Positions 35,774 to 64,000 of a stretch of 64,000 bases of DNA are shown here, piece by piece. The position numbers and the translations under genes were made by a program. This DNA comes from an uncultured Chloroflexales bacterium (GTDB lineage: Bacteria > Chloroflexota > Chloroflexia > Chloroflexales > Chloroflexaceae): positions 1 through 64,000 of the forward strand of contig CAKZSI010000005.1 of assembly GCA_937918935.1 (NCBI GenBank). Reading direction: 5' to 3'. The notes under the pieces are model-generated. The model made no database searches and was not told the origin of the DNA. It saw only the letters and a program-made list of their open reading frames with translations. Positions within the stretch are counted from its first letter, which is position 1, and every line of letters starts with the position of its first letter.

Positions 35774-35822
35774 CCGCGAAACCAGATCAGCACGCTATGG
35801 CGAAACTGCCAGCGCGCCTGTA

Positions 35823-35963
35823 CCTTCTTTCATCCCGACTGTACGGTCGGCCCCGGAGTTGCACCGGATCATGCAGACCATGAGAAAAGTGGTCGTGCTC
35901 GTGGGCTATACCACCGATCGGGAATTGCCTGGCTTCATTGCCGGACTCACCCTGCCCCGAAGG
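35823..35963 (-). promoter_or_regulatory. FMN riboswitch (RFN element)
   Basis: Read on the minus strand, the 141-nt element has the P1 helix formed by CCTTC (35963-35959) and GAAGG (35827-35823). It shows the conserved RFN blocks in order: GGGGCAGGGTGAG, then AATTCCCGATCGGTGG, TATAGCCCACGAGC, GATCCGGTGCAACTCCGG, GCCGACCGTACAGTCGGGAT and GAAAGAAGG. FMN binding is expected to favour the terminator hairpins downstream and shut off the riboflavin genes that follow. The match to the family consensus is from memory but extends over all blocks. Confidence 0.92.
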
Positions 35964-36112
35964 TTACTCTATTCACATGAAGAAGAGCTTGTCATTTCAG
36001 GATGCCACTATTTAGCCCCTATTCTCAGCCAGGGCGTAGAGAAAACTCCTTTCATCGCCTTCTTGAGACCAGTGTTGATATGGAGTATACCATAAAGTGT
36101 TGGAAGACTGTA

Positions 36113-62182: not shown

Positions 62183-62647
62183 TCATGGATACGCGTCTGG
62201 ATTCTCCACCACCAGCCCTTCGCTTGCAGCCACGGTGTTCAAGTCATCATCGGCAGACACAAAAATAATCGGTGGCAGACCACTACCCACACAGAGCGTG
62301 TTGACTTCCAATGCCGCTGCCAACTGCACGGCATCGTAGCCCGGCAAGGCATAAATCTCGGCAATGGTCATTGCACGGGCGATCAGGGCATCTGTGAACT
62401 CCACAATCTGGTAACTGGTCAGCAGGTCGGAGCGGAAAAGGCTGCAAGCAGCCGCTGCATCCGCAACGGCGATGGTTCCTCCGCGTGCCCGCCGGGTGAT
62501 GGCCGCTATCATCTCGACCGGTGTGATAGTTGCGATGAAAATCTCATTGTTCAATGCAGGGTCAAACAAGCCGCTTACCCAGGCAGAGCCTGTCTCGCTG
62601 ATGTAATGCTTCACCAGCGCGCTGCTGTCCAGGTAGTAATCTGCCAC
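62183..62647 (-). CDS. PIN-domain ribonuclease toxin (VapC-like)
   Basis: This is a probable RNase toxin. The 154-aa protein has the PIN acidic residues: Asp in YYLDSSALVKHY, Glu in TPVEMIAAI, and Asp in GYDAVQLAAALE with a further Asp in VSADDDL. GTG 62647 starts immediately after the TGA of the antitoxin's alternative frame (62650-62648), so the pair is translationally coupled if that frame is used. Confidence 0.88.
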   Translation of the reverse strand: MADYYLDSSALVKHYISETGSAWVSGLFDPALNNEIFIATITPVEMIAAITRRARGGTIAVADAAAACSLFRSDLLTSYQIVEFTDALIARAMTIAEIYALPGYDAVQLAAALEVNTLCVGSGLPPIIFVSADDDLNTVAASEGLVVENPDAYP

Positions 62648-62913
62648 TCAGCGCCGATCCTCAATAATCGTCTGTGAGACCGGTTTGCCCTGAACCGGGA
62701 CTAACCGCCGCCTGGAAATGTCAATGGGAAGGGGTGTCTTGACCTGCCTGACCAACCCGGAAGCGAGTAGTGCCCCTGATAGAACCCCTGACGCTTATGC
62801 ATCTCTTCCTGGGCTGCAAGTCGTTCTTGCACGGCTCGCCTGACCTGGAGCAACTCGTCGGTGTCAAGAGTTTTGATATGCTCGAGTACCTGATGAAGTA
62901 TCGTCTGCGTCAC
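62648..62913 (-). CDS. Antitoxin gene with a single-base frameshift
   Basis: From GTG 62913 (GGAG upstream) the frame encodes MTQTILHQVLEHIKTLDTDE and continues to HKRQG, then runs into an implausible tail ending at 62701. The -1 frame from that point reads ALLASGLVRQVKTPLPIDIS and ends PVQGKPVSQTIIEDRR. This is a C-terminus typical of antitoxins that pair with PIN toxins, and it stops exactly before the toxin GTG. The 266-nt length is one base short of an open frame. The shift falls at CAGGGGTTC, so this is a deletion, a sequencing error or a programmed slip. Confidence 0.7.
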
Positions 62914-63129: not shown

Positions 63130-63158
63130 TTGACGCTGCCGGGGCGCTGTGCTATACT
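63130..63158 (+). promoter_or_regulatory. Sigma-70 promoter of argG
   Basis: TTGACG (63130-63135) and TATACT (63153-63158) are exactly 17 bp apart, with a TGC extension before the -10. The predicted start near 63165 gives a leader of about 445 nt before argG. Confidence 0.7.
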
Positions 63159-63195
63159 TCCGCCGCGAAACTGATGCATACGACGGAGCGTAGGC

Positions 63196-63309
63196 ATGGC
63201 CCGAATGACGTGGAGCAGGTCTGGTAGTCGGGCGCGAGTGGTGTGGGGCGGCGCGCCCCGCGGTTGCCGTCGTCGTCCCCGTTGCCAGTCGGCGCCGCGC
63301 CCCGGCTAG
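63196..63309 (+). CDS. Arginine-rich leader peptide of argG (candidate)
   Basis: The 37-codon ORF starts at ATG 63196 with GGAG 7 nt upstream, only about 30 nt after the predicted transcription start. It has ten Arg codons, including three consecutive CGT (63268-63276) and a fourth CGT at 63280. It stops with TAG at 63307. It is too short for routine gene calling. The Arg cluster is followed within a few nucleotides by the first of four alternately pairing RNA segments. Arg codons are common by chance in GC-rich DNA, so support rests on the ordered promoter, ribosome-binding site, Arg run and terminator. Confidence 0.5.
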   Translation: MARMTWSRSGSRARVVWGGAPRGCRRRPRCQSAPRPG

Positions 63310-63371
63310 CCGCGCTTGCCCGCCGTTCTGGCAGCAGGCCAGTTTTGCCCGCGGGCAGGCTGGCCTCTTTT
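63283..63371 (+). promoter_or_regulatory. Candidate transcription attenuator of argG
   Basis: Four segments can pair alternately. Segment 1 is TGCCAG (63283-63288), extended by CGGCG at 63290. Segment 2 is CTGGCA (63328-63333), preceded by CGCCG at 63321. Segment 3 is AGGCCAG (63336-63342) and segment 4 CTGGCCT (63360-63366). 1:2 and 3:4 form together; 2:3 (CTGGC with GCCAG) is mutually exclusive with both. 3:4 also encloses TGCC/GGCA and is followed by CTTTTC, a terminator. A ribosome stalled on the Arg cluster would cover segment 1 and free segment 2 to block the terminator. Confidence 0.5.
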
Positions 63372-63422: not shown

Positions 63423-63524
63423 GGGATGATGCAACCGGCGCAAGCTCCAGAATCCAGGTTTGCCTCCTCGGGCGGCGCAGCCGCCCCACACCCCGCCGCT
63501 GGAGGCGAACGTTGCATCAGTCCC
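63423..63524 (+). promoter_or_regulatory. Three-tier hairpin in the argG leader
   Basis: The outer stem pairs GGGATGATGCAAC (63423-63435) with GTTGCATCA (63511-63519) and TCCC (63521-63524). The middle stem pairs GTTTGCCTCC (63458-63467) with GGAGGCGAAC (63501-63510). The inner stem pairs GGGCGGC (63470-63476) with GCCGCCC (63480-63486). An alternative pairing, CTCCAG (63445-63450) with CTGGAG (63499-63504), competes with the middle stem. It ends about 85 nt before the argG start. Confidence 0.55.
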
Positions 63525-63609
63525 GGGCTGTGGAACGCCTGCTTCCGAACCAGGGCGCGTGAGCGCCGCGACTGCGGCGCTTCGCGCGGAGTGAACAGCG
63601 AGGTACGCG

Positions 63610-64000
63610 ATGGCGAAGGGCGAAGTGAAAAAAGTCGTGCTGGCCTACTCGGGCGGTCTGGATACGTCGGTGATCGTGCCGTGGCTGCGCGAGAACTATG
63701 GCTGCGAGGTAATCTGTTTCTGTGCCGACGTGGGGCAGGGCGAAGATCTGGCGGGCCTGGAGGAGAAGGCGCTCAAGAGCGGCGCCAGCAAGCTCATCGT
63801 GCGCGATCTGCGCGAGGAGTTCCTGCGCGAGTATGTGCTGCCCACGATGCAGGCGGGCGCGATCTACGAGCGCAAGTATTTGCTGGGTACCTCGATGGCC
63901 CGCCCGATTATCGCTAAGCACCAGGTGGCCGTGGCCGAGGCCGAGGGGGCCGATGCGGTCGCCCACGGGGCCACCGGTAAGGGCAATGACCAGGTGCGCT
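63610..64000 (+). CDS. argG: Argininosuccinate synthase (N-terminal part, runs off the window)
   Basis: It joins citrulline and aspartate with ATP, the penultimate step of arginine synthesis. The first 130 codons are present: the ATP-pyrophosphatase P-loop [18 protein letters not shown], then [31 protein letters not shown] and [12 protein letters not shown], all diagnostic. ATG 63610 follows GAGG at a suitable distance. The rest of the gene lies beyond 64000. It is preceded by the leader described at 63130-63524. Confidence 0.97.

Follow-up and report, generated by a model that had tools for sequence, protein, structure and literature searches.

The region upstream of argG in this Chloroflexaceae genome encodes a short arginine-rich leader peptide ahead of a predicted intrinsic terminator, and we propose, with a probability of roughly 0.9, that it is a ribosome-mediated transcription attenuator responding to charged tRNA-Arg. 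The proposal draws on the sequence, its conservation, codon bias, preservation of the reading frame, compensatory pairing and genomic context, from which we infer that the leader is translated, that ribosomes stall on it, that transcription terminates and in which direction the response runs. An earlier note on the window (the whole 64,000-nucleotide stretch analysed here) had suggested that a leader peptide rich in Arg codons controls a terminator before argG, and comparative genomics strongly supports that suggestion.

All elements of the leader lie on the forward strand. A promoter with an extended -10 element (TTGACG-17-TATACT, TG before the -10; 10 of 12 consensus matches in a promoter scan) at 63130-63158 is followed by a Shine-Dalgarno-like GGAG (63185-63188), 7 nt 5' of the leader ATG, and by the leader ORF at 63196-63309 (MARMTWSRSGSRARVVWGGAPRGCRRRPRCQSAPRPG; 37 codons, ten of them Arg, stop TAG). 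Promoter-like sites occur in the same scan at 2 per 1.4 kb vs 0.4 in shuffles. The Arg control codons, CGT CGT CGT CCC CGT, occupy 63268-63282, with the triple CGT at 63268-63276, CCC next and the fourth CGT at 63280-63282. Directly 3' of them is segment A (AGTCGG, 63287-63292), the partner of segment B (63302-63310), which overlaps the stop codon (UAG, 63307-63309) and may pair either with A, as helix P1, or with the terminator 5' arm, as helix P2. The inner antiterminator strand, GCTTG (63314-63318), stands at a fixed distance from the stop codon and has its partner at 63335-63339; segment C (63335-63349) serves both as the terminator 5' arm and as the antiterminator 3' strand. The predicted intrinsic terminator (63336-63371) is a hairpin of 63336-63349 with 63354-63366, followed by TCTTTT. 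The argininosuccinate synthase gene argG, first in its operon, starts at 63610, 238 nt beyond the terminator, and runs past the end of the window at 64000 to 64812 (TIGR00032, E 2.7e-149; Pfam). The promoter, ribosome-binding site, 37-codon ORF with ten Arg codons, CGT run and four hexamers that the earlier note had described were all recovered at or near the places it gave, as was the argG gene downstream; the hexamers are TGCCAG (63283-63288), CTGGCA (63328-63333), GGCCAG (63337-63342) and CTGGCC (63360-63365), the last followed by TCTTTTC. A short dispersed repeat at 63470-63533, with about 20 similar copies in the genome, lies between the terminator and argG and is absent from some relatives. 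Upstream of the promoter, on the reverse strand, a PIN-domain protein (62183-62647) and an upstream small ORF (62701-62913) form a possible toxin-antitoxin pair.

Taken by itself, the window's sequence is unremarkable. The fold z-score of the leader is -1.11, a stability no greater than that of shuffles, and a simple terminator scan of the leader region returned no match, for which an internal loop in the stem and the imperfect U-tract (TCTTTT) are the probable reasons. The question is therefore decided by comparison, and it is conservation that raises the region above chance.

To compare upstream regions, we looked for argG in 60 relatives. In all four same-genus genomes the promoter, leader ATG, Arg run, stop codon and terminator are kept; indels within the ORF are of 3 nt, and the spacer between terminator and argG varies by whole segments. 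GGAG precedes the leader in 5 of 5 genus sequences. In other genera, too, a promoter is recognisable 5' of the leader. Among relatives, 3-nt indels preserve the leader frame. Twenty-two non-redundant argG upstream regions carry a recognisable leader; they come from the window's family (Ca. Chloroploca, Ca. Viridilinea and Ca. Oscillochloris are named members), a second family of the order and one outlying genome. MAG Chloroflexaceae SKW209 encodes an ArgG that is 98% identical. With the regions upstream of gpm-argJ included, there are 31 distinct leaders, and one RNA family precedes argG or gpm-argJ in most Chloroflexaceae, in the second family and in the outlying genome. Model R1 matches 58 of 82 genomes of the order (Arg and Lys copies together), and model R2 matches 38 of 41 genomes of the family (E up to 0.1). 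The Herpetosiphon-like family gave no R1 match except in the one outlying genome. A few genomes of the window's family lack the leader, and in most of these argG lies 3' of a tRNA gene. Eight weak phylum-wide matches to R1 or R2 were set aside as probable chance, having no coherent leader or gene context. In four leaders of the second family the start codon follows the -10 hexamer by 10 nt, which suggests that these leader-peptide mRNAs are leaderless. The alignment of related argG upstream regions, the comparison that the earlier note had proposed, found the ORF, its frame, the Arg run, the terminator and alternative pairing kept with compensatory changes.

The arginine codons are enriched in one frame and at particular positions. 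Over the last 16 codons of the 31 leaders, the Arg share is 0.304 in frame 0 and 0.089 and 0.062 in the other frames; shuffled leaders average 0.133, with a maximum of 0.175 in 1000 shuffles. Each leader has at least 3 Arg codons in this stretch, and Arg stands at stop-relative codons -13, -12 and -9 in 22, 25 and 25 of the 31, respectively. CGT accounts for 95 of the 151 leader Arg codons and for 3 of the 29 in argG, where CGC supplies 23; preference for one particular synonymous codon would be expected to make attenuators sharper (PMC1183508). The leader C-terminus follows a conserved motif, R-R-x-R-x-Q-P-...-[PS]-G-stop.

Three helices compete downstream of these codons. P1 joins segment A (AGYCRG) to segment B (CYGGYU, which runs into the stop codon). 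P2 is the antiterminator: here B binds the part of the terminator 5' arm nearest the loop, and GCUUG binds CARGC at the base of that arm. P3 is the terminator hairpin. The leaders were compared in three alignments, A1, A2 and A3. In the Arg alignment, P1 and P3 together are 86.9% paired vs at most 55.6% when slid, with double-sided changes at 7 pairs vs 2.8 in shuffles; the terminator in A1 has double-sided changes at 6 of 12 pairs, and the A:B helices have 84-97% standard pairs in A1 and 83.8% in A3. GCTTG is nearly invariant in all three alignments. P2 is 84.1% paired in the Arg alignment alone, with covariation not above shuffles; across 51 Arg and Lys leaders it is 83.6% paired, with 39 double-changed cells vs 16.3 shuffled and at most 17 slid. 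In the Lys set, P2 and P3 are each supported by pair counts. Compensatory changes thus support the terminator and also the predicted antiterminator, the latter by way of the joint Arg and Lys alignment. In masked folding, hiding A and leaving out the terminator 3' arm gave at least 5 antiterminator pairs in the MFE structure of 48 of the 51 leaders, and hiding B gave the terminator hairpin in every leader tested. P1 is the MFE structure in 33 of 51 leaders, rarely so in the Arg class, and its role in that class is therefore less sure. Of the four-segment switch drawn in the earlier note from the hexamers, the terminator stands, as a compensated hairpin; the 1:2 and 2:3 pairings do not hold as a conserved switch, since both need CTGGCA at 63328, which is present in 4 of 22 aligned leaders, all within the genus. 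In the window itself 1:2 can form, as an 8-bp helix (GTTGCCAG with CTGGCAGC) within the MFE structure. The conserved competitor of the terminator is instead the stop-codon segment (63302-63310) together with GCTTG, paired to 63335-63349.

R1 also matches loci without Arg runs. The Lys-class leaders are mostly of 20 codons, ending KQxKRxKKPxxRSG-stop; the gene that they precede is that for homocitrate synthase in the window's family and, in the Roseiflexus-like family, that for homoaconitase. The window's own genome carries such a Lys-codon copy at positions 18086-18179 of contig C68 (peptide ending SRQVKRAKKPDVWSG), before homocitrate synthase (TIGR02146, E 3.3e-128) and homoaconitase genes. 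Another genome (G031) has both kinds, an Arg leader at C1:4486295-4486404 and a Lys leader at C1:419069-419163. An Arg leader of the same form precedes argC in one genome (G425). Leaders of this form also stand upstream of LysE-type transporter genes in other lineages, Lys-coded at four loci and Gln-rich at six; an exporter induced by Lys or Gln shortage would be odd.

The apparent operon order is argG-gpm-argJ-argH-acetyltransferase, the genes after argG being named by inspection. In genomes with an argG of another type at another locus, the leader stands in front of gpm-argJ. The Arg leader would accordingly belong to the whole operon and not to argG alone, on the evidence that it remains before gpm-argJ where Chloroflexus-like genomes have a different argG elsewhere. 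At four such Chloroflexus-like loci (g9 and g5), with the Arg leader still beside gpm-argJ, argG is divergent (about 33% identity) and sits at another locus, an apparent gene displacement.

The leader combines a translatable ORF with its promoter, a cluster of end-product codons, an intrinsic terminator and an excluding antiterminator; on pair counts and masked folding, this antiterminator is predicted to exclude the terminator and to be released by stalling. RNA polymerase would start near 63165, and a ribosome would translate the leader ORF. When Arg-tRNA is scarce, the ribosome would stall at the CGT cluster (63268-63282) and mask segment A, leaving B and GCTTG to pair with the emerging segment C as the antiterminator; the terminator would then be blocked and argG-gpm-argJ-argH transcribed. 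When Arg-tRNA is plentiful, the ribosome would reach the UAG at 63307-63309 and mask B and GCTTG, C would pair with its own 3' arm, and transcription would end near 63371. If no ribosome were present, the terminator would again be left free, through the pairing of A with B. By the expected footprint, the cover of a ribosome with its A site at 63280-63282 would extend to about 63292 and hide A, and that of one at the UAG would extend to about 63320 and hide both B and GCTTG. This geometry would explain both the stop codon inside B and the constant distance from stop codon to GCTTG.

We weighed three other readings of the region. The leader peptide might itself bind arginine or another ligand and arrest the ribosome, as do the fungal arginine attenuator peptides, TnaC and SpeFL. 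In arrest peptides the residues close to the stop are important, and the conserved QP...[PS]G-stop fits that pattern; however, the motif lies over RNA segments A and B, whose pairing accounts for its conservation, the residues between the control codons vary, and the Lys paralogue swaps its control codons and retains the remainder, which leaves peptide arrest unlikely. An RNA aptamer, or a T-box reading arginine or uncharged tRNA-Arg directly, would have precedent in the T-boxes that govern arginine genes in other bacteria (PMC1262725), but Rfam gives no match even at a relaxed threshold, and the conserved part consists of a translated Arg/Lys-rich frame and switching stems with no further conserved domain, so that we regard direct sensing by the RNA as very improbable.

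That Arg codons of GC-rich DNA merely happen to stand beside an ordinary terminator is scarcely credible. The sequence is GC-rich and its fold z-score is slight, as given above; yet the Arg enrichment is specific in frame and position, indels keep the frame, covariation is present, and the arrangement recurs with Lys codons at Lys genes. A wider scan of 71 other argG upstream regions, for an ORF with at least 4 codons of one amino acid per 6 followed by a terminator, points the same way: the sense strand gave Arg 16 times, Pro twice and Leu and Val once each, and the reverse strand, with terminators in 8 regions vs 44 on the sense strand, gave none.

An Arg-coded leader with a terminator was thus found in about a fifth of the 71 regions, mostly Anaerolineae; one of the 16 is a same-genus region counted already. 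The other 15 loci, with Arg-rich short ORFs and terminators upstream of argG, are in Anaerolineae-type and Desulfobacterota-labelled MAGs, and their RNA sequence is unrelated to R1 and R2. Returning to the attenuator, we think it likely that one ancestral switch was re-specified by control-codon swaps, with Arg at the arg operons and Lys at the lysine genes of Chloroflexales and possibly Gln or Lys at LysE-type transporter genes elsewhere, and that in Anaerolineae and some Desulfobacterota-labelled MAGs Arg leaders also arose, or else diverged until they could no longer be recognised.

Leader-peptide attenuation is textbook knowledge for trp, his, leu, thr, ilv and phe. Control of arginine and lysine operons has been ascribed to repressors. 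It has also been ascribed to T-boxes or riboswitches (PMC1262725). Like the trp, his, leu, thr, ilv and phe attenuators of Proteobacteria, the present leaders place a short ORF of end-product codons, an intrinsic terminator and a competing antiterminator before a biosynthetic operon; unlike them, they use Arg (and Lys) codons, occur in Chloroflexota, have the stop codon inside the antiterminator strand and, in one family, appear to start leaderless. They also lack a match to an Rfam leader family, the His, Leu, Thr and Trp covariance models giving none up to E 5. In PMC3766115 (2013) the attenuator motifs listed in Rfam are his, leu, thr and trp only, with ilv and phe known besides. The Salmonella speF leader ORF34 (PMC6386406) likewise uses consecutive Arg codons to sense arginine through ribosome pausing, but its target is a polyamine gene, which it regulates by way of Rho, decay by RNase G and access to the ribosome-binding site, whereas the present leader has an intrinsic terminator and precedes an operon for Arg biosynthesis, and we saw no sequence relation between them. 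The cysteine and branched-chain leader ORFs of Actinobacteria (PMC1262725) also place end-product codons upstream of biosynthetic genes, for other amino acids. T-box and L-box (lysine riboswitch) RNAs control Arg and Lys genes at the RNA level in other phyla; the present leader has no aptamer and would sense through codon translation, and the Rfam T-box and L-box models had no match in the window. The only riboswitch matched there is an FMN riboswitch (RF00050, 89 bits) elsewhere, at 35818-35968 on the reverse strand.

A search of open-access papers, with subscription literature outside its scope, found no Arg or Lys leader attenuator in Chloroflexota, and searches within PMC4833913, PMC8632094, PMC2965389 and PMC3766115 showed none. 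Neither the R1/R2 switch nor the unrelated Arg-coded leaders are described in Rfam or in the open-access papers searched, the closest arginine-sensing leader being speF ORF34. If the attenuator operates as proposed, the mechanism would extend to two amino acids, Arg and Lys, in a deep-branching group and through one shared switch, and the family would offer a natural experiment in the re-specification of a regulator through codon swaps. It would also give filamentous phototrophs such as Chloroflexus a proposed regulator of arginine and lysine synthesis.
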